Source: Chitinilyticum aquatile DSM 21506 (GTDB lineage: Bacteria > Pseudomonadota > Gammaproteobacteria > Burkholderiales > Chitinibacteraceae). Taken from it: a stretch of DNA of 64,000 nt. The notes under the pieces are model-generated. The model was not told the DNA's origin and ran no database searches. It saw only the letters and a program-made list of their open reading frames with translations. The DNA lies in the NCBI RefSeq assembly GCF_000430805.1, contig NZ_KE387260.1, positions 236,460 to 300,459 of the forward strand, written 5' to 3'. Shown one piece after another: positions 46,296-57,350 of this stretch; the stretch's first letter is position 1, and each line of letters starts with the position of its first letter. The translations under genes and the position numbers were made by a program.

Positions 46296-47915
46296 TCACA
46301 ACAGTGCTTCGGCCGCCTGATTACCCCACCAGCTGGCCTCCTCGAATACCGAAAGACCGGATAGATCGGCGTGCGCAAAGCGGATGCGGCCATCGAGCGC
46401 GCGCAGCGCGGCGAGGCCGGCATTCCCAAGAAAGCCCGGCGCGGGCGTACTCATGGCGTGGCCGCGCACGGTGATTTCGACCTGCTGCACGGCCTGCCGC
46501 CAGCGCCAGCCGTACACCGCGTGCAGATCCTGCGCGGCAACGTCGTACAGATCATCGGCACTGGCGTGTTCGAGTCGTGCGCGCACCGCTCGCGGGTCTT
46601 CATTGGCAAAGGCATGGTAGGCCGTAAATACGCTGTGCGCCGGCTTGTACTGGCGAATCAGCTGGTGCGTGCTGTTGACGAAGCCAAGGCTGTTGCTGCC
46701 GTACACGACGTTGTCCCACGCCAGCGGATGGTCTTTCGGCTCATCCGGGAAGCGGTCGATCAGGAAATTGCTGACCTGCCAGGCCGCATGAGGTAGTGCG
46801 TGCTGCGCCGGGTCGTAGCCGAAATCGCGCAAGCCGCTGACCACGTGCGCGGCAACATGCAGCGGCATGGCACAGATCACCTGCTCGGCGACCAGCCGCG
46901 TCACCTTGCGGCTGACCACATCGAGCACGTCAACATGTACTACCTTGCCGACTTCCGTCGCCTTCACCGCCATGCCGCCCATGCGCTGCGCAGGCGCGAG
47001 CACTGAGGCGAGATGGCGCACCAGCGGGTTGATGCCGTCCGGCCAGGTCAGGATGGCGCCCTCTTCAGCATTCGCCGCGTGGCCGCCACGGCTGGCGAAA
47101 TAATGCAGCCCTGCCCAGGCCGAGGTCTGAGCGCTACCGGCACCATAATCATCGCGGCAGGCGTAATCCAGATACCACAGCAGCCCCGGCGCGGTATAAC
47201 CCTCGCGCTTGAGCCATTGCGCAAAACTGAGTTGATCAAGCGCCCGCCATTGCGGGTCAGTGGAGGACAGAACCAGCGGAATGGCGAACACACGCCGACC
47301 ATCGCTGCCGGTCTTGTCGCGCAAGCCCGCGACAAAATCCAGAAAACGCTGCTGCTGTTTCAGCTCGTCGGCATCCATGCCGGTGCGGGGCATCAGCCCT
47401 TCCTGCCAGCGGCCGTCGACCCAGAGGCGTTCTTCCGGCGCATGCACCAGTACCCGCTCGTCAAAGTAAGGCTTCGCGGTGAACGCATCACGCTCGATCA
47501 CGCCCATGTCGGCCAGCAGCTCGCGCACATGGCGCGACTCCAGCGAAGGCAGCGGCAGATAATGCGCGCCACGAGGATGGGCCAGCCCGCCCAGCGCCCC
47601 CGCCGCACAATTGCCACCGAACTCGGGACCATCGACCAGCAGCACATCCTTGCGACCGCCACGCACCAGTTTCCATGCGGCAAACAGGCCAGCCGCGCCA
47701 CCGCCGAGAATGGCGACACCGACCTTGCGTTCAACCGAGGGAGCAGGAAGCTGGGTATGACCTCGCAACCAATGGCCTTCAAGCATGCCAGGCCAATACC
47801 CCTTGATGTTGAGCCCGAGCTGCAGCAGCTTGCAGCCGCCCAGCGCCATTCCCGCTCCCCCCCCTGCAAGCAGACCCAGCCCCAGCTGCAGCACCTTGCG
47901 CCGTGTCAGCTCCAT
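46296..47915 (-). CDS. Exported FAD-dependent oxidoreductase (amine-oxidase-like)
   Basis: A 539-residue flavoprotein. The N-terminus has TRRKVLQLGLGLLAGG, a Tat-like signal, ending in a possible lipobox LGGC (Cys28). The Rossmann FAD motif VAILGGGAAGLFAAWKL lies at about residues 66-82, with LLVDGPEFGGNCAAG after it. The overall plan (NAD-binding-like N-terminal segment, long substrate domain) resembles amine oxidase/protoporphyrinogen oxidase-type proteins. Its ATG overlaps the stop of the aminopropyltransferase gene (ATGA), so the two are coupled and a polyamine substrate is a reasonable inference, not shown by sequence. Confidence 0.8.
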   Translation of the reverse strand: MELTRRKVLQLGLGLLAGGGAGMALGGCKLLQLGLNIKGYWPGMLEGHWLRGHTQLPAPSVERKVGVAILGGGAAGLFAAWKLVRGGRKDVLLVDGPEFGGNCAAGALGGLAHPRGAHYLPLPSLESRHVRELLADMGVIERDAFTAKPYFDERVLVHAPEERLWVDGRWQEGLMPRTGMDADELKQQQRFLDFVAGLRDKTGSDGRRVFAIPLVLSSTDPQWRALDQLSFAQWLKREGYTAPGLLWYLDYACRDDYGAGSAQTSAWAGLHYFASRGGHAANAEEGAILTWPDGINPLVRHLASVLAPAQRMGGMAVKATEVGKVVHVDVLDVVSRKVTRLVAEQVICAMPLHVAAHVVSGLRDFGYDPAQHALPHAAWQVSNFLIDRFPDEPKDHPLAWDNVVYGSNSLGFVNSTHQLIRQYKPAHSVFTAYHAFANEDPRAVRARLEHASADDLYDVAAQDLHAVYGWRWRQAVQQVEITVRGHAMSTPAPGFLGNAGLAALRALDGRIRFAHADLSGLSVFEEASWWGNQAAEALL

Positions 47916-49426
47916 CAGCGCAGCACCCGTGACCAGTCCTGCTCGAAGTAATGCACCAGCGACTGGTTGTTGAGCCGGTTCGCTTCGACTTCGATTTTCT
48001 GCATGTCCGGCGGGAAGAAGAACATCTGCCGGGTCGACTCAGTGTCGAGGAATTTCATTGGCAAGCGGTACGCGGTGGGCGGCGTATAGCCGGCCTGTTT
48101 CGCCCCGATGATGAAACCCCATTCGCCGAACGAGGGAACATAAGCGTGGTACGGCGTAGTGACAAAACCCGCCTCTTCCAGCGTCTTGTTGATGCTCCAG
48201 TACGAGCGCGGGGCATGCATCGGCGAGGTGGACTGCACCACCATCAGGCCGTTCTGCGCCAGATGGCGGTTCACCAGCCGGAACATCGGCACCGAATACA
48301 GCTTGCCGAGCGCGAAATTGCTGGGGTCGGGGAAGTCGATGATGATGGCGTCAAACACGCCATTGTTTTTCTCCAGCCACTGACCAGCGTCTTCATTGAC
48401 CACGTGGGCGCGTTTGTCCTTCAGCGCCCCCTTGTTCAGTGCCACCAGCGGCGCGGAGGTGGAAAACAGCGTCGTCATCGCCGGGTCGAGGTCGACCAGC
48501 GTAATGTGCTCGATCTGCGGGTAGCGCAGGATTTCCCGCATTGCCAGCCCGTCGCCGCCGCCGAGCACCAGCACGCGCTTCGCCCAGGGCGTTTTTTCCA
48601 GCACCGGATGCACAAGCGCCTCGTGGTAGCGGTATTCGTCGCGGCTGGAGAACTGCAGGTTGCCATTGATGTAGAGGCGCAGATCATCCTGCCACTTGGT
48701 CAGCACCAGCCGCTGATACGGCGAAGTCTGCGCGTGGATGATTTCATCACCGTAGATGGCCTTCTCGCTCCAGGCTGTCAGCCGCTCGGCAGCAACAAAG
48801 GAGCCGGCCAGCAGCATCAGCACAATGCCGCCGCGCAGGTAGAAGTGCAGCGGATTTTTCAGCTCATGACGAAACACCCGCGCCGTCCACAGCGCAACGC
48901 CCACATTCAGGAGGCCAAACAGCAGCGCCGTGCGCGCCAACCCCAGCTTGGGTGCCAGTACCAGCGGAAACAGCAGCGATACCGCCAGCGCCCCCATGTA
49001 ATCGAAGGTCAGCACGCGGCTGACGATGTCGGCAAAGGCCGTCTTGCGCTGGTTGAGCACACGCATCACCAGCGGAATTTCCATACCGACCAGCGCGCCA
49101 CAGATCAGCACCAGCGCATACAGCACGGTGCGGAACGGTGCATTGGCCCAGGCAAATACCAGAAACAGGAACAGGGCCGACAAGCCACCGATCAGGCCGA
49201 CCAGCAGCTCGACATCAATAAAGGTCCCCAGCGCGCGCTCTTCCTTCACATACTTCGAGCAGTGGGAGCCCAGCCCCATCGCGAACAGATAGGTGCCGAT
49301 GATCGAGGAAAACTGCAGCACCGAATCGCCCAGCAGATAGCTGGCCAGCGCACCCGCAATCAATTCGTAAGCAAGACCACAGGATGCAACAATGAACACG
49401 GAAAGGATCAGCAGCCGGTCTCTCAT
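47915..49426 (-). CDS. Membrane-fused spermidine synthase-like aminopropyltransferase
   Basis: A 503-residue protein. The first ~215 residues form about seven transmembrane helices (LAYELIAGALASYLLGDSVLQ to GGIVLMLLAGSFVAA). The C-terminal domain is SpeE-like: QRLVLTKWQDDLRLYINGNLQFSSRDEYRYHEALVHP, the SAM-type loop VLVLGGGDGLAMREILRY, LVDLDPAM and IIIDFPDPSN. Soluble SpeE is about 290 residues, so this is the membrane-anchored polyamine aminopropyltransferase class. It is divergent from the DUF350 gene and coupled to the flavoprotein gene. SpeD lies 4 kb away in the opposite operon, which could supply decarboxylated SAM. Confidence 0.9.
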   Translation of the reverse strand: MRDRLLILSVFIVASCGLAYELIAGALASYLLGDSVLQFSSIIGTYLFAMGLGSHCSKYVKEERALGTFIDVELLVGLIGGLSALFLFLVFAWANAPFRTVLYALVLICGALVGMEIPLVMRVLNQRKTAFADIVSRVLTFDYMGALAVSLLFPLVLAPKLGLARTALLFGLLNVGVALWTARVFRHELKNPLHFYLRGGIVLMLLAGSFVAAERLTAWSEKAIYGDEIIHAQTSPYQRLVLTKWQDDLRLYINGNLQFSSRDEYRYHEALVHPVLEKTPWAKRVLVLGGGDGLAMREILRYPQIEHITLVDLDPAMTTLFSTSAPLVALNKGALKDKRAHVVNEDAGQWLEKNNGVFDAIIIDFPDPSNFALGKLYSVPMFRLVNRHLAQNGLMVVQSTSPMHAPRSYWSINKTLEEAGFVTTPYHAYVPSFGEWGFIIGAKQAGYTPPTAYRLPMKFLDTESTRQMFFFPPDMQKIEVEANRLNNQSLVHYFEQDWSRVLR

Positions 49427-49490
49427 GGATATTTCTTGTGATTTGGGTAAGAATGCACAGCATTATGCCTGATTGCCGCGAGGAACCCGC

Positions 49491-49892
49491 ATGCTCCAGA
49501 CTGCCCTGCCACTGCTGCTGACTTATCTGACTTACCTGGGTGCCGGCATTGCCCTGCTTGTTGTGTTCTCGGTGATCTACGCCTGGGTAACACCCATTGA
49601 TGAGCTCAAGCTCATCCGCGAAGGCTGCACGGCCGCCGCACTGTCGTATGGCGGCGCGCTGATCGGGTTTTCGCTCACCATTGCGTCGAGTGCCTGGCAT
49701 GTAAACCGGCTGGAATATTTCCTGATCTGGGGTTTGCTCGCCATGATTGCGCAGATTGCGGTGCATCTGGTGCTGGGCCGCTGCATCAAGGGTCTGCCAC
49801 AGGCGCTGATTGAAAACAATATCGCTGTCGGCAGCTTTGCCGGCGCCGTTTCTCTGGCCGTCGGCATCATCAACGCCGGCGCGCTGTCCTGA
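49491..49892 (+). CDS. DUF350 membrane protein (YjfL-like)
   Basis: A 133-residue protein with four transmembrane helices, typical of DUF350. PIDELKLIREGCTAAALSYGGALIGFSL and NIAVGSFAGAVSLAVGIINAGAL are family segments. The molecular role is unknown; in E. coli yjfL belongs to a PspA-like (YjfJ) gene group that also contains a glutathionylspermidine-synthetase homologue. The ATG at 49491 has AGGA 8 nt upstream; a TTG at 49473 is less likely. It begins 64 nt from the divergent aminopropyltransferase start. Confidence 0.92.
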   Translation: MLQTALPLLLTYLTYLGAGIALLVVFSVIYAWVTPIDELKLIREGCTAAALSYGGALIGFSLTIASSAWHVNRLEYFLIWGLLAMIAQIAVHLVLGRCIKGLPQALIENNIAVGSFAGAVSLAVGIINAGALS

Positions 49893-49923
49893 TTCCGTTC
49901 ATTCTGCGAGAGTGAGCTTCACC

Positions 49924-50328
49924 ATGCTGAAACCTGCCTGTCTGATCCTGCTGCTAATCGTTAGCCTGCCCACTGCTGCAACCGTCTACAAGTGCAAGAA
50001 CCCTCAGGGCGGCACGACCTATAGCGACCAGCCCTGCAGCACAAGCGGTGGCCAGGAGGTCAAGCAGATCAAGGCTCCTGTTTCGGGCAAACCGCAGAGC
50101 ACGGCATCGGCCCCCGCCAGCGCAGTTGCCACCGCCAGCGCCCCGCAGAATGGAAACGCCAGGGTCTGCCAGGATCTGGCCAATAACGAGGCCGATATCG
50201 ACGCCGAGCTGCAGCGACTGGCTGCCGAGAAAAAAACTGACGTCAACAATGTCATGCTCGCCGGTCAGGCCAAGCGTGCCAAGGCTGAAATCGCCAAACT
50301 GAAAGCTCAGAACAACTGCCCGCAATAA
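49924..50328 (+). CDS. Exported DUF4124-domain protein
   Basis: A 134-residue protein with a signal peptide (MLKPACLILLLIVSLPTAA). The DUF4124 motif follows: VYKCKNPQGGTTYSDQPC, a short beta unit with two cysteines found in many proteobacterial periplasmic proteins. A Ala/Ser/Pro linker and a charged helical tail complete it. The function of the domain is unknown. It is placed 31 nt after DUF350 and 40 nt before the SPFH gene, so it is likely in the same transcript. Confidence 0.85.
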   Translation: MLKPACLILLLIVSLPTAATVYKCKNPQGGTTYSDQPCSTSGGQEVKQIKAPVSGKPQSTASAPASAVATASAPQNGNARVCQDLANNEADIDAELQRLAAEKKTDVNNVMLAGQAKRAKAEIAKLKAQNNCPQ

Positions 50329-50368
50329 CACGCGACAGCGCCTCACCTTTACTGATCAGGAGTACATC

Positions 50369-51475
50369 ATGGGTCTCGGTTCATTCATCAAGAAACAGTT
50401 TATCGACATCCTGGAATGGCAGGAGGATCAGGACGGCATCCTGGCCTGGCGCTATCCGATGGCCGACAACGAAATCCAGTATGGCGGCAGCCTCACCGTG
50501 CGCGAATCGCAGGCTGCGGTGTTCGTCAATGAAGGCAAGGTGGCCGACGTGTTCCCGGCCGGCATGCACAAGCTGACCACGCAAACCCTGCCGGTACTCA
50601 CCTACCTGAAGAACTGGGACAAGCTGTTCCAGTCGCCCTTCAAGTCGGACGTGTACTTCTTCAGCACCCGCGTGCAGCTCGGCCGCAAGTGGGGCACGCC
50701 GCAGCCGATTACCATCCGCGATGCGGATTTCGGCATGGTGCGCATGCGCGCCTTCGGCATCTACTCGTACAAGATCGCCGACCCGAAACTGTTCTACACC
50801 GAAATCAGCGGCACGCGCGAGACTTACACCCGTGACGAAGTCGAGCAGCAGCTGCGCAATCTGGTGATTTCCACCATGACCAGCGCGCTGGGTTCATCCG
50901 GCGTTCCCTTCATCGACATGGCCGGCAACCAGGGCCTGATGGGCGAGAAGATCAAGGAAGCACTGGTCCCGGTATTTGCCAAGTACGGCCTCGAACTCGA
51001 CAACTTCGCCGTTGAAAATGTCTCGCTGCCGGAAGAACTGCAGAAGGCGCTCGATACCCGGATCAGCATGGGCATGATCGGCAATATGCAGACCTACACG
51101 CAGTACCAGGCTGCCAACGCGATTCCGCTCGCGGCACAGAACGAAGGCGGCATGGCCGGCATCGGTGCCAGCATGGCCGCCGGCATCGGCATGGGTCAGG
51201 TGATGGCGGGCGCGATGAACACAGCCCTGAACCCGGGCGCGGCCCAGCAGCCGGTCGCTCCGGCTGCAGCCGGTGTGGTCATGGGCGCGGATGGTGGCGT
51301 CGGTGTCGGCATGGTTGCGGGCGCGGGTGTCACCTCAGCTGCTCCGGCCGCGCCAGCGGCGGACGACCCGCAGGCCAAGCTGGCCAAACTCAAGGGCCTG
51401 CTCGACGCCGGCCTGATCAGCCAGGCCGATTACGACACGGCCAAGGCCGAGGTGCTGAAGAAGCTGCTGGGCTAA
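50369..51475 (+). CDS. SPFH (band 7)-SHOCT protein
   Basis: A 368-residue protein of the family often annotated as SPFH domain/virion core protein-like. The SPFH domain covers about residues 40-250 (ESQAAVFVNEGKVADVFPAG, FGIYSYKIADPKLFYTEISG, LPEELQKALDTRISMGMIGN). A Gly/Ala-rich linker leads to a SHOCT-like C-terminal hairpin (DPQAKLAKLKGLLDAGLIS). Such proteins assemble on membranes. CAGGAGTA precedes the ATG. It is followed by a PR53 copy and then the DUF4178 gene. Confidence 0.92.
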   Translation: MGLGSFIKKQFIDILEWQEDQDGILAWRYPMADNEIQYGGSLTVRESQAAVFVNEGKVADVFPAGMHKLTTQTLPVLTYLKNWDKLFQSPFKSDVYFFSTRVQLGRKWGTPQPITIRDADFGMVRMRAFGIYSYKIADPKLFYTEISGTRETYTRDEVEQQLRNLVISTMTSALGSSGVPFIDMAGNQGLMGEKIKEALVPVFAKYGLELDNFAVENVSLPEELQKALDTRISMGMIGNMQTYTQYQAANAIPLAAQNEGGMAGIGASMAAGIGMGQVMAGAMNTALNPGAAQQPVAPAAAGVVMGADGGVGVGMVAGAGVTSAAPAAPAADDPQAKLAKLKGLLDAGLISQADYDTAKAEVLKKLLG

Positions 51476-51481
51476 ACCAAA

Positions 51482-51530
51482 AGGTATTGCCACGCAGCCA
51501 TTTGAATCAAAGGGTTGCATGGCAATACCC
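51482..51530 (+). repeat. PR53 palindromic element inside an operon
   Basis: GGTATTGCCA and TGGCAATACC are a perfect 10-bp outer pair; AGCCATTT / AAAGGGTT is the inner pair with two mismatches. It lies in the 81-nt gap between the SPFH and DUF4178 genes. Confidence 0.95.
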
Positions 51531-51556
51531 GGCCACCTACTTACAAGAAACCCGCC

Positions 51557-53020
51557 ATGTACCGTACCGCCTGCCCCAGTTGTGGCGCCGAAGTGCTGTT
51601 CCGCTCGACGATCTCGACGATCGCCGTCTGCGAGTACTGCCAGAGCACCGTGCTGCGCGATGCCGATGAAGTAAAAGACATCGGCAAGATCGGCCGCGTG
51701 CTCGAAGATTATTCGCCGATCCAGATCGGCACCTCGGGTACCTTTGCCAAGCGCAATTTCACCGTGGTCGGCCGCATCCAGCTGCACTACGACGCAGGCC
51801 TGTGGAACGAGTGGTACGTGATGTTCGATGACGGCAGCGGCGGCTGGCTGGCCGATGCGTCAGGGCAGTACATGTTCACGCTCGATATCGGTCCGGCGAA
51901 AAATGCCACGCCTTTCGAGCAGATGCACCCGGAATTCCGCTATGAACACGCCGGGCGCAGCTTTATCGCCACCGATGTGCGCACGGCACGCTGTGTCGGC
52001 GGCCAGGGCGAGCTGCCCTTTATCGTGGGCGAAGGCTACGAGGCGAAGGTGGTTGACTGCCGCTCGGGCGACCGCTTCCTGACCATCGATTATTCGGACG
52101 GAACGCCACGCCTCTATGCCGGCTCGGCGGTGGTGCTGGACGAATTGAACTGCCAGCTGTTGCGCGATGGCGACCAGATTCTGCAAACCGCCGGCAAGCT
52201 CAAGGGCGCAAACAATGTGCTCGACTGCCCGAACTGCGGCAGCCCGCTCAATTACAAGGCCGGTGTCGCCACGCAGATCGTCTGCCCAGCCTGCACCAGC
52301 GAAGTGGATTGCTCGGGCGACCGCGCGACGGTACTCGCCAAGCACGAGGAAGCCAACCGCTACCACGCCACGCTCGACATCGGCGACAAGGCGACAATCG
52401 AGGGCGACAACTGGTGGACGGTAATCGGCCTGATCGAGCTCGAAGAAGTCGGCGACGACGATTCGGGCTGGAGCGAATACCTGCTCTACCATGCCAAGAA
52501 AGGCTTCAAATGGCTGGTGGAAACGAGTGATGGCTGGTACGAGGCAAGGGTACTCGACAAATGGCCGGATGCCTGGGGCGAGAACTCGGCGACCTTCAAC
52601 AAGGAACAATACCGCAAGCTCTACCCGGCCTACGACGGCCGCGTTACTTACGCTGCCGGTGCCTTCAACTGGCGGGTGAAAGTGGGCGACGTGACGACCT
52701 ATCGCGATTACGAGCGCAATGGCGTGCGGCTGGGCAAGGAAAGCACGCGCAGTGAAGTCAACTGGACCACGTCGAAGAAACTGACCAACGAACTGGTCGC
52801 CCAGTGGTTCGGCAAGCAGGAAATCGTCACACCCAAATACAGCAGCACCGCCGCCCCGGCCGATAATGACCTCAGCAGCATGGCAACGCTGGCCACCATC
52901 ATCCTACTGGTGATCAATGTGCCCATCATGCTGTTCGGCAACTTTTTCTCCGGCCTGATCTGGACCGGGCTGGCGTGGTGGCTGTTGCGCCTGCCGCTCA
53001 AATTCAACAAGGACAACTAA
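51557..53020 (+). CDS. DUF4178 protein with two zinc ribbons and C-terminal membrane helices
   Basis: A 487-residue protein. The first zinc ribbon is CPSC (residues 6-9) with CEYC (25-28); a second is CPNC (about 224) with CPAC (about 245). Each is associated with a DUF4178 beta-rich unit (NFTVVGRIQLHYDAGLWNEWYVMFDDG and WWTVIGLIELEEVGDDDSGWSEYLLY). Two helices near the C-terminus (about residues 440-475) anchor it in the membrane. The function is unknown; DUF4178 recurs with SPFH, DUF350 and SpeD genes. The ATG at 51557 has a weak ribosome site; a GTG-type start at 51515 lies within the repeat. Confidence 0.9.
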   Translation: MYRTACPSCGAEVLFRSTISTIAVCEYCQSTVLRDADEVKDIGKIGRVLEDYSPIQIGTSGTFAKRNFTVVGRIQLHYDAGLWNEWYVMFDDGSGGWLADASGQYMFTLDIGPAKNATPFEQMHPEFRYEHAGRSFIATDVRTARCVGGQGELPFIVGEGYEAKVVDCRSGDRFLTIDYSDGTPRLYAGSAVVLDELNCQLLRDGDQILQTAGKLKGANNVLDCPNCGSPLNYKAGVATQIVCPACTSEVDCSGDRATVLAKHEEANRYHATLDIGDKATIEGDNWWTVIGLIELEEVGDDDSGWSEYLLYHAKKGFKWLVETSDGWYEARVLDKWPDAWGENSATFNKEQYRKLYPAYDGRVTYAAGAFNWRVKVGDVTTYRDYERNGVRLGKESTRSEVNWTTSKKLTNELVAQWFGKQEIVTPKYSSTAAPADNDLSSMATLATIILLVINVPIMLFGNFFSGLIWTGLAWWLLRLPLKFNKDN

Positions 53021-53024
53021 GCGC

Positions 53025-53180
53025 ATGGGACGCGGACTCTTCAAGGCTTACTGCATCGCCATCGTGTCGCTGAGCACCCTGTTCAACATGAGCTCGTGCA
53101 GCAGTTCAGGCACATCCACCCGCGGCTGGGGCAGCGGTTTTTCCTCCGGCGGCTGGAGCTCGGGCGGAGGCCACAAGTAA
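53025..53180 (+). CDS. Small Gly/Ser-rich exported peptide (51 residues)
   Basis: ATG at 53025 to TAA at 53178-53180 reads MGRGLFKAYCIAIVSLSTLF, then NMSSCSSSGTSTRGWGSGFS and SGGWSSGGGHK. It starts 4 nt after the DUF4178 stop and its stop overlaps the speD start (TAATG), so it is clearly part of the operon. The N-terminus is signal-like with Cys25 in a weak lipobox context (MSSC). The Gly/Ser/Trp tail ending GGGHK is unusual. Function unknown. Confidence 0.8.
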   Translation: MGRGLFKAYCIAIVSLSTLFNMSSCSSSGTSTRGWGSGFSSGGWSSGGGHK

Positions 53181-53560
53181 TGGCTTCCCCGCTGGGCCGG
53201 CACCTGCTGGCCGACTTCTACGGTTGCGACGCGGCACTGCTCGCCAACCCGGAGCGTATTGCCAGCCTGCTGCTGGCCGCAGCCGGGGCCGGCCGCGCCA
53301 CCGTGCTGCAGCAGCATTTTCATCACTTCGGCCCGCAGCAGGGCGTCACCGGCGTGCTGCTGCTGATGGAATCACACATCAGCATCCACACCTGGCCGGA
53401 GCATGGCTACGCCGCGCTCGACCTGTTCATGTGCGGGCAGGCAGAAAGCGACGCGGCGCTCGCCAGCCTCTGCGACAGCCTGCAGCCCGCCAGCCGGCAG
53501 GTGCAGCGCGTGCTGCGCGGCGGCGATCCCGGCCTCTCCCTGCAGTCCGAGCGGGCATGA
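53180..53560 (+). CDS. speD: S-adenosylmethionine decarboxylase proenzyme
   Basis: SpeD (126 residues) is a pyruvoyl enzyme that makes decarboxylated SAM, the aminopropyl donor for spermidine. The self-cleavage site is Glu64-Ser65 in MESHISIHTWPEHGYAALDLFMCG, with the catalytic His and Cys in the same segment. Length and motif fit the short bacterial class. The ATG overlaps the preceding small gene's stop and its own stop overlaps the TPR gene's start (ATGA), so all three are tightly coupled. Confidence 0.95.
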   Translation: MASPLGRHLLADFYGCDAALLANPERIASLLLAAAGAGRATVLQQHFHHFGPQQGVTGVLLLMESHISIHTWPEHGYAALDLFMCGQAESDAALASLCDSLQPASRQVQRVLRGGDPGLSLQSERA

Positions 53561-54567
53561 CGCACGAGAGCGAGCTGCTGCACATCGAGCAGATCCTGTT
53601 CAATGAACCGGTCACTGCGCTGCAATTGTGCCGTGGCGTCCTCAACCACCTGCGTGACGGGCAGGACCCGCAAGGCTTCGTGCAGGCAGCCAACCTGCTC
53701 TCGCTGATCGAAGACCAGCTGGGCGAAAGCGTCGGCGCCCGCGCCGAACTGCTGCAGGCGCTGGCCTGGTGCCGCCAGCATCAGCTCACAGAGCTTGAAC
53801 CGGTCGTGCAGGAGCGCCTGGGGCGCGAAGCCTACACGGCTGGCGAATACCGGCAGGCAGCGCTGCACTGGCTCTCCTGCCTTGACCAGTGCCGCGAGCT
53901 CGGCGGCCCCGCCAGCGAATCCGGCATGGCCTGCATCGGCCTGGGGCACTGCTGCAGCGCACTGGGTGAAAACGGGCTGGCACTGGCTTACCATCGACTG
54001 GCCCAGCGCCTCATCGCACCGCTTGATGACATCTACCTCACCGCCAAACTGGGCATCAGCCTGGCCTGGGACCTGCGCGTCGCCGGGCAGCCGGATGAAG
54101 CCTGGCAATTGCTGGAAGACGCGCTGAGGCTGTGCCGGGAAAACGGATTCAATTTCTTCCAGGCCGAGCTGCTGTTGCGGCTGGCGGAAATCACGCTGGA
54201 CCGGGGGCAGATCGACCAAGCCGAGCAGTTGGCCGAAGAAGGGCTGAGCATGCTCGTGCATACTCCTTCGCACTGGTGCGAAGCCAAGCTGCTGGGCCTG
54301 CTCGCCACCATCAATGCCGGGCAGGACAATCTGTCGCTGGCCTTCAGCCTGATCCAGCACGCCTTGCGCATCGCCGAAGAAGACAAGATGACGCACGTCG
54401 AAGCCGGCCTGTGCGCGCAGGCAGCAGACTATGCCGCCGCACTCGGCCAGCTTACCGCTGCCAGCCATTATCGCGAGCGCGGCAACACCCTGGCCGCGCA
54501 GCACGCCAGCCACTGGCACGCCGACGCCGAGTTGCTGGACGAACTGCGGCGGCGCCTGCCAGCCTGA
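53557..54567 (+). CDS. Tetratricopeptide repeat protein of the SpeD operon
   Basis: A 336-residue, wholly helical cytosolic protein without signal peptide. Repeats of TPR type are seen, such as GMACIGLGHCCSALGENGLALAYHRLAQRL, AELLLRLAEITLDRGQIDQAEQLAEEGL and AAALGQLTAASHYRERG. No catalytic or DNA-binding domain is recognised. Start ATG overlaps the speD stop. It is the last gene of the operon; a PR53 copy begins at its stop codon region. Confidence 0.87.
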   Translation: MTHESELLHIEQILFNEPVTALQLCRGVLNHLRDGQDPQGFVQAANLLSLIEDQLGESVGARAELLQALAWCRQHQLTELEPVVQERLGREAYTAGEYRQAALHWLSCLDQCRELGGPASESGMACIGLGHCCSALGENGLALAYHRLAQRLIAPLDDIYLTAKLGISLAWDLRVAGQPDEAWQLLEDALRLCRENGFNFFQAELLLRLAEITLDRGQIDQAEQLAEEGLSMLVHTPSHWCEAKLLGLLATINAGQDNLSLAFSLIQHALRIAEEDKMTHVEAGLCAQAADYAAALGQLTAASHYRERGNTLAAQHASHWHADAELLDELRRRLPA

Positions 54568-55325: not shown

Positions 55326-57350
55326 ATGACTGCACGTTCATCGCGCGGGCGCTCGCGCCTGTCGCTCACCCTCGCCGCGCTGCTGATTTCAGCACTGGCG
55401 CATGCCGCGCCGCAATGGCAGGAAGGCAACACGTACACGGCGGGCACCGTCGTCAGCTTCAATGGCCACGACTACAAGGCCCTCGTCACTCACACCGCCT
55501 ATGTCGGCGCCGGCTGGACACCATCCGGTACACCGACGCTGTGGCAGGACATGGGCAGCTCGGGCACGGTTTCGCCCACTCCCACTCCGACGCCAGTGGT
55601 AACGGTGACCCCGACGCAGCTGCCGACATTCACACCGACGCCGACCATCCCGCCCACGGTGACCCCGAGCCAGCCCGCCGGCAATTGCGCCGCGGCCTGG
55701 AATGCCACAACGGCCTATAACGGCGGTGCCTCGGTCAGCTACAACGGCCGCAACTACAGCGCGAAGTGGTGGACGCAGGGCGATGATCCGAGCAAATCGA
55801 CCGAATGGGGCGTCTGGAAAGACCTCGGCCTCTGCGGCGGTACCACCGGCACACCGACGCCACCGGTGACGCCGACACCGACACCCCCGATCTGTCCGAT
55901 GCCGACGCCGATTCCTGGCTTTGTCAGCGCCTACGACCCGACACTGCAATGCCCGAACATCACCATGCCGGCTGGCAGCACGGTCACCTTCCAGCAGGTC
56001 ATTCTCAGCGGCAACACCCTGAGCTGGAAGCTGGACCGCAGTGCGTATTCCGGCACGCCGGCAGTCTGGCGCATCATCATCGGCAAGAATGGCTGGAGCG
56101 GCGACAGCCGTGTCATCAGCGTGGTCGATGATGCCGGGAAGAGCTACTGGACGGGCACCGGCTCGACCAGCGACCGCAGCGTACGCATCCAGGTTTGTGC
56201 TGAAAACTACACGGGCTGCGTCCTGAGCCAGCCGGCCGTACTGGTCGACCCGACTCCGCCCGTCACACCGACACCAACAGTCACGCCGACCGTGACCCCC
56301 ACCGTGACACCGACCGGCACGCCAACTGATCTGCCCAAGCACGTGCTCGTCGGCTATCTGCACGCCAGCTTTGCCAACGGCTCGGGTTACATCCGCATGA
56401 GCGATGTGTCGGACAAGTGGGACATCATCAACCTGTCGTTTGCCGAGCCGACCTCGTCGACCTCCGGCCAAGTCGCCTTCAAGATGTGCCCGGTATCCGA
56501 ATGCCCGAATGTGGAATCGGAAGCCGAATTCATCGCGGCGATCAAGGCCAAGCAGGCACAGGGCAAGAAGGTGCAGATCTCCATCGGTGGCGCCAACGGC
56601 CAGGTTCGTCTGGAAAATGCCGCAGCGGTGACCAGCTTCGTCAATTCGGTTTCCGCCATCATCGACAAATATGGTCTGGATGGTCTGGACGTCGATTTCG
56701 AGGGCCACTCGCTGCAGCTCAATCCCGGTGACAATGATCTGGCCAAGCCGACCACGCCGGTCGTGGTGAACCTGATCAGCGCGCTGAAACAACTGAAGGC
56801 GAAATACGGCAGCAAGTTCACGCTGACCATGGCGCCGGAAACCTTCTTCGTGCAACTGGGCTACAGCTTCTACGGTGGCAATTGCGCGGGTTGCGATACG
56901 CGCGCCGGTGCCTATCTGCCGGTGATCTACGCGATGCGTGACGATCTGACGCTGTTGCACGTGCAGGACTACAACTCCGGGCCGATCACCGGGCTGGACA
57001 ACAGCTATCACACCATGGGCAACGCGGACTTCCACGTCGCCATGACCGACATGCTGCTGACCGGCTTCAAGGTGGCTGGCACGAACTTCCAGTTCCCGGC
57101 ACTGCGTCAGGAGCAGATTGCCATCGGCCTGCCGGCCAACGGCAATGCCGGCGGCGGCTTCACCAGCGTCGCCGACGTGCAAACGGCGCTGGATTGCCTG
57201 ATGAAGGGCACCGGCTGCGGCAACTACAAGCCGCATGCCGTCTACCCGAACCTGCGCGGACTGATGACCTGGTCGGTGAACTGGGACAAGTTCAACAGCT
57301 TTGAATTCAGCACCCAGCACCGCGCCTACTTCGACAAGCTGGCCAAGTAA
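55326..57350 (+). CDS. Secreted multi-modular GH18 chitinase
   Basis: A 674-residue enzyme. A signal peptide (about residues 1-35, ending AHA) is followed by a chitin-binding CBM5/12-like module (QWQEGNTYTAGTVVSFNGHDYKA), a Pro/Thr linker, a second such module (YNGGASVSYNGRNYSAKWWTQ), another linker, a ~110-residue beta-rich module (about 195-305) of unclear type, a linker, and the GH18 domain from about 335. The catalytic DGLDVDFE spans residues 452-459, with Glu459 as acid/base. GGAGG precedes the start. A terminator follows. The enzyme hydrolyses chitin outside the cell. Confidence 0.95.
   Translation: MTARSSRGRSRLSLTLAALLISALAHAAPQWQEGNTYTAGTVVSFNGHDYKALVTHTAYVGAGWTPSGTPTLWQDMGSSGTVSPTPTPTPVVTVTPTQLPTFTPTPTIPPTVTPSQPAGNCAAAWNATTAYNGGASVSYNGRNYSAKWWTQGDDPSKSTEWGVWKDLGLCGGTTGTPTPPVTPTPTPPICPMPTPIPGFVSAYDPTLQCPNITMPAGSTVTFQQVILSGNTLSWKLDRSAYSGTPAVWRIIIGKNGWSGDSRVISVVDDAGKSYWTGTGSTSDRSVRIQVCAENYTGCVLSQPAVLVDPTPPVTPTPTVTPTVTPTVTPTGTPTDLPKHVLVGYLHASFANGSGYIRMSDVSDKWDIINLSFAEPTSSTSGQVAFKMCPVSECPNVESEAEFIAAIKAKQAQGKKVQISIGGANGQVRLENAAAVTSFVNSVSAIIDKYGLDGLDVDFEGHSLQLNPGDNDLAKPTTPVVVNLISALKQLKAKYGSKFTLTMAPETFFVQLGYSFYGGNCAGCDTRAGAYLPVIYAMRDDLTLLHVQDYNSGPITGLDNSYHTMGNADFHVAMTDMLLTGFKVAGTNFQFPALRQEQIAIGLPANGNAGGGFTSVADVQTALDCLMKGTGCGNYKPHAVYPNLRGLMTWSVNWDKFNSFEFSTQHRAYFDKLAK

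Follow-up and report, generated by a model that had tools for sequence, protein, structure and literature searches.

In a 64,000-nucleotide stretch of the Chitinilyticum aquatile DSM 21506 genome (contig NZ_KE387260.1 of assembly GCF_000430805.1, positions 236,460 to 300,459; "the window" below), positions 46296 to 54567 of the stretch hold nine genes, among them speD, for an S-adenosylmethionine (SAM) decarboxylase, and a gene for an aminopropyltransferase fused to a membrane domain (APT). We propose, with a probability of roughly 0.55, that this unit is a protein-tail modification system in which APT aminopropylates the C-terminal lysine of a membrane-anchored tail, here that of a 51-residue peptide encoded directly before speD. 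A sequence-only reading of the same DNA had suggested that SpeD and APT serve a polyamine-modified envelope component; the analysis described below supports that direction. The best candidate acceptor can be narrowed to one residue, the lysine that ends the 51-residue peptide; that reading had listed the peptide as Gly/Ser-rich only.

C-terminal lysine of the tails

A hidden Markov model (HMM) for the 51-residue peptide gathered 27 members, the window copy included, and all 27 end in HK. For a wider view, we used a set of 111 loci, consisting of the window and 110 loci collected by APT similarity (30 Pseudomonadota genome neighbourhoods and the best 80 loci of a longer list); locus counts refer to families within the fetched stretches. 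Type A loci typically have the order SPFH, SpeD, one or two DUF4178, DUF350, APT and a flavin adenine dinucleotide (FAD) protein. Type B loci combine a lipoprotein with DUF350 and APT, and YjfI (CesT/Tir)-like, PspA-like and other genes (judged by eye) often come next. Type C loci have DUF350, a DUF4178-like gene (also by eye) and APT, with SpeD in most.

In type A loci other than the window, the gap that follows DUF4178 is typically about 150-250 nucleotides long. We collected small open reading frames (ORFs) there with a rule that was blind to the C-terminus, requiring the same strand, 35-85 residues, a hydrophobic segment within the first 40 residues and a start -60 to +300 nucleotides from the DUF4178 stop, with known genes excluded. 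A ribosome-site filter proved too strict, losing many peptides, and this rule of transmembrane (TM) segment and position was used instead. It returned 69 small TM ORFs in 66 of the 77 loci that contain DUF4178, and lysine is the last residue in 64 of the 69. The same length and hydrophobicity rule applied elsewhere in the loci gave a terminal lysine in 55 of 1329 ORFs (4.1%), and the reverse strand of the post-DUF4178 gap gave none in 19. Among the 13 remaining loci, 8 have a DUF4178 protein that is itself extended by a hydrophobic stretch and a Gly/Ser tail, with SGGSHK, SGGGHK or SGGAHK as its end, and 5 (L118, L127, L128, L131 and L133) have a Lys-ended peptide outside the limits of the ORF rule. 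Thus, by the rule and further reading together, a Lys-ended tail is present in 77 of 77 DUF4178 loci, separate in 69 and fused in 8.

To see what else is kept, we took 43 tails less than 50% alike from 80 Lys-ended tails, a set in which the terminal lysine is present by selection. The residue preceding it is His in 34, Gly in 7 and Ile in 2, and the entropy at positions -3 to -15 is 2.0-3.2 bits. Both lysine codons are used in the 64 rule-found ORFs (AAG in 33, AAA in 31) and all three stop codons occur, which argues that selection acts on the protein. Elsewhere in the operon, proteins seldom end in lysine (SPFH, 2/63; DUF350, 0/88; SpeD, 1/72; APT, 1/113; FAD protein, 7/72), and 8 of the 14 Lys-ended proteins among 97 DUF4178 hits are the fused tails. 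In the 64 peptides, Lys and Arg are more numerous before than after the TM segment in 32, fewer in 5 and equal in 27, a distribution that leans towards a tail outside the membrane. We also considered the 51-residue peptide as a lipoprotein in general and rejected this, as only the window and Deefgea copies show a lipobox-like Cys beyond the TM segment, which by eye lacks a counterpart in the other 25 HMM members. The peptides of Acidobacteria and Gemmatimonadetes (L114, L117, L120, L121, L131, L133, L136 and L139) have an internal K/R-S/T-V/I-R-x-NPG-x-x-R-like stretch before a terminal GK, which was not seen in the proteobacterial peptides.

The lysine ending is also found on unlike scaffolds. 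The secreted lipoprotein of type B, 311-367 residues long with a Ser/Arg-rich tail, ends in GK in 7 of 7 loci, six of them found by clustering and one (L061) via its ending. A GK ending occurs as well on a 576-residue protein of L054 and on a 536-residue ORF (510 residues as annotated) of the Alteromonas plasmid L179. In the cluster at 8944-15602 of L179, genes for a membrane aminopropyltransferase and SpeD occur together with those for a "toxic anion resistance" protein, DUF4178, DUF350 and a lipoprotein-like protein that ends in Lys. In type C, a TM peptide of 78-100 residues lies directly before APT. In eight such gaps, 16 TM ORFs pass the rule; each gap contains one with a GGK or SGK ending (8/8 gaps), and the remaining eight ORFs are neighbours or overlap in another frame. 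Altogether, a Lys tail was found in 93 of the 111 loci (in L152 via a second stretch of the same genome) and in 28 of 31 Pseudomonadota genomes with APT.

The type C gaps, a plasmid sample and a second phylum sample were examined after the rule had been formed. The plasmid sample comprised 8 fetched records out of 27 bearing the enzyme or its domain. In the five loci of type A order, the peptide after DUF4178 ends in lysine in every case (L177, PSHK; L181, GSHK; L182, RHGK; L183, NRVK; L184, PTHK), and the L177 peptide is annotated by NCBI as hypothetical. Additional ORFs returned for these loci correspond to DUF350 or to frames that overlap; L178 and L179 are counted under the other scaffolds and types. 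On a Haloarcula plasmid (L180, 5932-7662), a "spermidine synthase" gives a weak match across 82% of the membrane-fused enzyme. The second phylum sample, of 288 genomes centred on a Verrucomicrobia locus, had DUF4178 in 11 genomes and APT in 13, with APT present in 10 of the 11. All 8 newly fetched genomes have a Lys-ended tail, in one case fused to DUF4178.

Proteins of another family, DUF1190, offer a parallel. In Escherichia coli, the DUF1190 proteins YgiB and YjfM end in SRSMGG and GHWGG, and the neighbouring YgiC and YjfC are named peptide--spermidine ligases in RefSeq. This naming is said to stem from work on YgiC/YjfC peptide-spermidine ligases by Pederick et al. in 2023. We found DUF1190 in 22 of 200 Pseudomonadota genomes and in none of the 31 genomes with APT, not all of which need be in that draw. 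A YgiC-like gene, recognised by sequence pattern, adjoins 19 of 25 DUF1190 matches, and the last residue of these 19 proteins is G in 14 and S in 5, never K; the remaining six end in G, G, S, R, E and D. Thus, as far as sequences tell, the terminal residue tracks the kind of polyamine enzyme, Lys with the aminopropyltransferase and Gly or Ser with the amide ligase. The side-chain amine of lysine suits an aminopropyltransferase and the free carboxylate of Gly or Ser suits an amide ligase. The eleventh DUF4178 genome of the second sample (G486, locus L237), with no APT match at E 1e-30, has a gene with C-terminal residues that look YgiC-like by eye, together with DUF4178 adjoining DUF350 and a 127-residue lipoprotein-like ORF that ends in serine (RSTYIHS; tail ..RGGFGSTSSGRSTYIHS). 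L237 is a possible bridge between the two kinds of operon.

This association bears on two other explanations of the lysine. One is a wall anchor like that of Braun lipoprotein, in which an L,D-transpeptidase joins the terminal lysine to peptidoglycan and the polyamine enzymes act elsewhere. Braun lipoprotein is likewise small and anchored, with an essential C-terminal lysine, but the lysine rule follows the aminopropyltransferase, the Gly/Ser-ended counterparts accompany another polyamine enzyme, and reading the recurrent neighbour families by eye revealed no L,D-transpeptidase, although no search was aimed at this enzyme; we regard such an anchor as highly unlikely. The other is that the substrate of APT is a membrane lipid or a small molecule, or its product an unusual polyamine, with the Lys-ended peptide serving as a subunit or anchor that uses its lysine for binding. 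The solved relatives of the enzyme are named spermidine or polyamine synthases and act on free amines, and a subunit too would be conserved and fused to DUF4178. Polyamine sensing or aminopropylation of "other substrates" has also been proposed for such operons, in the passages available of Ravi et al. (PMC11237479). A free substrate would not account for a final residue that stays constant among tails that otherwise differ, and also on lipoproteins, nor for the Gly or Ser ending where the enzyme is a peptide-spermidine ligase, and we consider it unlikely, though worth keeping in view beside aminopropylation of the tail.

Gene set and its conservation

The nine genes form two divergent, closely packed units, and all of them are as the sequence-only reading had described. 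Pfam or NCBIfam matches support eight, the 51-residue peptide being the exception. The features are as follows.

46296-47915, minus strand: FAD oxidoreductase with a twin-arginine translocation (Tat)-type signal and an amine-oxidase fold (Pfam/NCBIfam match; fold search)
47915-49426, minus strand: aminopropyltransferase fused to a membrane domain, APT (PRK03612, 685 bits)
49491-49892, plus strand: DUF350 (YjfL-like) small membrane protein (Pfam/NCBIfam match)
49924-50328, plus strand: DUF4124 protein, within the unit here but not in its conserved part (Pfam/NCBIfam match)
50369-51475, plus strand: SPFH/Band_7_1 protein with a C-terminal SHOCT domain, a probable scaffold (Pfam/NCBIfam match)
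51557-53020, plus strand: DUF4178 protein with Cys pairs and a C-terminal hydrophobic segment (Pfam/NCBIfam match)
53025-53180, plus strand: 51-residue single-TM peptide with a Gly/Ser-rich tail ending GGGHK (direct reading; no Pfam/NCBIfam family)
53180-53560, plus strand: SpeD, SAM decarboxylase of the class 1b type (TIGR03330)
53557-54567, plus strand: TPR protein, the final gene, not in the conserved part (Pfam/NCBIfam match)

The ORF of the peptide begins 4 nucleotides past the DUF4178 stop, and its own stop overlaps the start of SpeD. Across the 111 loci, DUF350 is present in 87, DUF4178 in 77, SpeD in 72, the FAD protein in 70 and SPFH in 63, and a gene set that recurs in this way argues that the neighbourhood does not arise by chance. 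The earlier idea of eight co-functioning families, which had counted DUF4124 and TPR as parts of the unit, goes beyond the conserved set and is rejected, since these two have no relatives in the loci outside the window (TPR at E 1e-4). The closest named relative among the matches listed is the locus of Deefgea chitinilytica, with 75% identity in APT.

Judged from record titles, type A occurs in Beta- and Gammaproteobacteria, Acidobacteria, Gemmatimonadetes, Verrucomicrobia, Bacteroidota and Fibrobacteres, with gene order retained across about six phyla; it is also found on Alphaproteobacteria plasmids. In 299 Pseudomonadota genomes, we found APT in 31 and DUF4178 in 20, all 20 within the 31. 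SpeD (PF02675) is present in 71 of the 299, including 25 of the 31 with APT, and 28 of the 31 have a SAM decarboxylase, which in 3 is of class 2 (PF01536). Psychrobacter-type loci (L090, L091 and L048) have the rearranged order APT, SpeD, DUF350, SPFH and a DUF4178-tail fusion, with no FAD match in the fetched stretch. No Actinobacteria locus of the DUF4247 variant turned up among the relatives searched, which included named loci and plasmid records.

In the C. aquatile genome, speD is the single PF02675 match, and there are two PF01564 matches, APT and a 267-residue protein. The latter (L002, 1333-2136) is without the usual DxTDP motif, as we read it, and adjoins a 313-residue ORF that by eye resembles a tRNA-thiolation (TtcA-type) protein. 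A carboxyspermidine route was ruled out for this genome, where no nspC match rose above the cut-off (18 bits against 409). On these matches, SpeD and APT form the only clear aminopropyl pathway found in the genome. There is one PspA_IM30 match, on a different contig, and no DUF1190 match, and none of the nine genes encodes a YgiC-type ATP-grasp ligase. A promoter scan of the window was uninformative (3 found, 1.8 expected). Past the cluster, at 55326-57350, lies a large ORF with Thr/Pro-rich linkers and carbohydrate-binding/chitinase-like sequence, as seen by eye.

Enzymes, topology and the proposed reaction

APT has seven predicted TM helices (residues 2-225) followed from residue 228 by a domain of the spermidine-synthase fold, and its AlphaFold model (mean predicted local distance difference test [pLDDT] score of 91) places seven long helices ahead of the domain. 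This domain matches solved aminopropyltransferases by sequence (1uir, 3.6e-31), and the fold search also returned 1uir. In 67 sequences of the family, Q238, G289, G291, D292, G293, D314, D346, D364 and D367 are invariant and G290 nearly so; we take these to be the catalytic Asp, the GGGDG motif and the acidic residues of the decarboxylated SAM site of canonical SpeE. A loop, S-F-G-x-W-G, is also invariant in the APT family and presumably differs from the canonical enzymes at the acceptor side. Canonical SpeE, which converts putrescine to spermidine, is soluble and cytosolic, whereas in APT the Lys/Arg-rich loops (53-70, 121-140 and 181-199) alternate such that the N-terminus is predicted inside and the C-terminal synthase domain outside. 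In the SpeD family, alignment columns retain the pyruvoyl Ser (ESH) in 72 of 72 members, the catalytic His in 67 and the catalytic Cys in 69.

These retained catalytic motifs, in the only clear pair of this kind in the genome, would also fit ordinary spermidine synthesis, with the membrane genes adjacent by chance or co-regulation. We regard this as very improbable, given a gene order kept over so many phyla, the fusion to seven TM helices, a loop that is presumably unlike the canonical enzymes where the acceptor binds, and the negative result that Li et al. reportedly obtained with the fusion in 2019.

Of 70 usable members of the FAD protein family, 66 carry an RR (Tat) motif, so the protein is probably exported. 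A PDB sequence search with this protein gave no match, and it was placed by fold search alone. The best folds for its AlphaFold model (pLDDT, 91.8) are a bacterial monoamine oxidase and putrescine oxidase, with protoporphyrinogen oxidase at rank 7 and spermidine dehydrogenase at rank 18. An exported protein with these closest folds could itself modify the terminal lysine, for example to an aldehyde for cross-linking, while the aminopropyltransferase acts elsewhere. However, the Lys tail and APT persist in types B and C, where the fetched stretch showed no FAD gene, and we give this explanation very little credence, the least of those considered here.

If, as we propose, the tail is the acceptor, SpeD would decarboxylate SAM and APT would move the aminopropyl group of the product onto the side-chain amine of the C-terminal lysine, on the 51-residue peptide here and on the DUF4178 C-terminus or a lipoprotein elsewhere. 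The lysine side chain carries the same aminobutyl group as putrescine, and the product would be N-epsilon-(3-aminopropyl)lysine or a longer chain. The reaction would probably take place outside the inner membrane, given the RR motif of the FAD protein, the lipoprotein tails and the predicted N-in/C-out topology of the seven helices. The Tat-exported FAD protein may then trim or convert the secondary amine of the product, and DUF350, DUF4178 and SPFH-SHOCT may form a membrane platform. As mere candidates for this role, DUF350 or the seven-TM half of APT might carry decarboxylated SAM across the membrane. The gene set, the intact catalytic motifs, the lysine rule, the export signals and the predicted topology are read from the sequences themselves; what we infer from them is which molecule accepts the group, what product forms, on which side of the membrane this happens, how the FAD protein takes part and what the unit is for.

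Several points weigh against this proposal. The weakest step in the mechanism is the supply of decarboxylated SAM outside the cytoplasm, which a periplasmic synthase domain would need and for which we know of no route. A synthase domain on the inside would instead allow modification to precede export of the tail, for the lipoproteins at least. In addition, the chemistry of the pathway is inferred, a terminal lysine can serve other ends, as in Braun lipoprotein, and protoporphyrinogen oxidase among the top folds means that the fold of the FAD protein leaves its substrate unfixed. This protein cannot be essential, since the stretches fetched for types B and C yielded no FAD gene. The counts are over loci related by descent and so are not independent events, and for 13 of the 77 tails, the 8 fused ones and 5 of the separate ones, the expected ending was already known at the time of reading. 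Finally, 18 of the 111 loci, none with DUF4178 in the fetched stretch, have no convincing Lys tail, the TM proteins ending in GK or HK there being two unlikely ORFs (L057 and L100); no Lys tail was found in 3 of the 31 Pseudomonadota genomes (G052, G057 and G164), and the tail reading in the second sample covered 10 of 13 APT genomes, those with DUF4178.

The acceptor hypothesis is directly testable, since it names an acceptor, defines a mass shift and can be probed by changing a single residue. If true, it would add a lysine modification on bacterial envelope proteins and give decarboxylated SAM a use beyond free polyamines. It would also provide a context for DUF350, DUF4178 and many unnamed small ORFs and link envelope systems of the phage shock protein (PSP) type to a chemical mark.

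Relation to known systems

Work in 2019 is said to have left a widespread pair, a SAM decarboxylase and a membrane spermidine-synthase-like enzyme, without a known acceptor. In it, Li et al. reportedly described clusters of a SAM decarboxylase, a fusion of a major facilitator superfamily (MFS) domain with spermidine synthase, and DUF350; the fusion reportedly failed to complement a speE mutant and made no spermidine, and an acceptor other than putrescine was reportedly proposed, with none named. The unit described here shares SpeD, the fusion enzyme and DUF350 with those clusters and differs in that a protein C-terminus is proposed as the acceptor.

The 2019 fusion proposal is cited in the passages available of Ravi et al. 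2024 (PMC11237479), which describe a PSP-linked operon of a 7TM-spermine synthase, DUF350 and DUF4178, and a variant with a SAM decarboxylase and a polyamine oxidase in which band-7/SHOCT replaces the CesT/Tir-PspA dyad. The sequence-only reading had correctly stated that PspA/YjfJ-type genes occur with DUF350, band-7 and polyamine enzymes, as those passages of PMC11237479 bear out; it made no mention of the 2019 proposal. The window has the 7TM-fused synthase, DUF350, DUF4178, band-7 with SHOCT, SAM decarboxylase and an FAD protein of the amine-oxidase fold, a shared fold that need not imply the same substrate as the polyamine oxidase of Ravi et al. Unlike their operon, the cluster is without the large lipoprotein and, in a scan of the nine genes, the CesT/Tir-PspA dyad. 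We considered whether the 51-residue peptide is their "Ctha_1186 lipoprotein" and rejected this; that name more likely refers to the 311-367-residue lipoprotein of type B. The available passages of PMC11237479 contain neither the short Lys-ended peptide nor the terminal-residue rule. Among other sources available in part, PMC10407285, PMC11107197, PMC11999265 and PMC12730115 do not discuss the acceptor of the APT fusion in the passages retrieved, and those of PMC12506659, PMC12270671 and PMC10948618 do not mention the tails. Neither the terminal-residue rule nor any aminopropylated bacterial protein turned up in passages from the open-licence literature, which mostly excludes subscription journals, among them the Li 2019 and Pederick 2023 papers. 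The cluster is a member of a described neighbourhood, and the Lys-tail rule and the acceptor hypothesis appear to be new.

Aminopropylated lysines are known from diatom silaffins, Ser-phosphorylated peptides with aminopropyl units on their lysines, for which the probable machinery is a bacterially derived SAM decarboxylase and aminopropyltransferase, according to passages of PMC3820600. Silaffins differ from the tails described here in having many internal lysines and in being eukaryotic and silica-forming, and we claim no homology. Braun lipoprotein (Lpp) resembles the 51-residue peptide as a small envelope protein with an obligatory C-terminal lysine, but this lysine is joined to peptidoglycan by L,D-transpeptidases and no polyamine genes are involved.

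A further parallel is the YgiC/YjfC system, whose enzymes are termed "bacterial peptidylpolyamine synthetases" in a passage of PMC12568646. It likewise combines a Gly/Ser-rich tail on a lipoprotein with a polyamine-using enzyme, and YjfC resembles the APT operons further in its DUF350 (YjfL) and PspA-type neighbours. The two differ in that YgiC and YjfC are ATP-grasp ligases accompanied by Gly/Ser-ended tails, whereas the APT operons pair an aminopropyltransferase with Lys-ended tails, and we claim no sequence relation between the enzymes. More tentatively, and at odds somewhat below even, both may belong to a polyamine pathway of many phyla that operates outside the inner membrane, in which APT would act on terminal lysines, decarboxylated SAM would reach it through the membrane and an exported amine oxidase would edit the product, while a sister branch would ligate spermidine to Gly/Ser-ended tails, such that the last residue of the tail would tell which enzyme the operon encodes.

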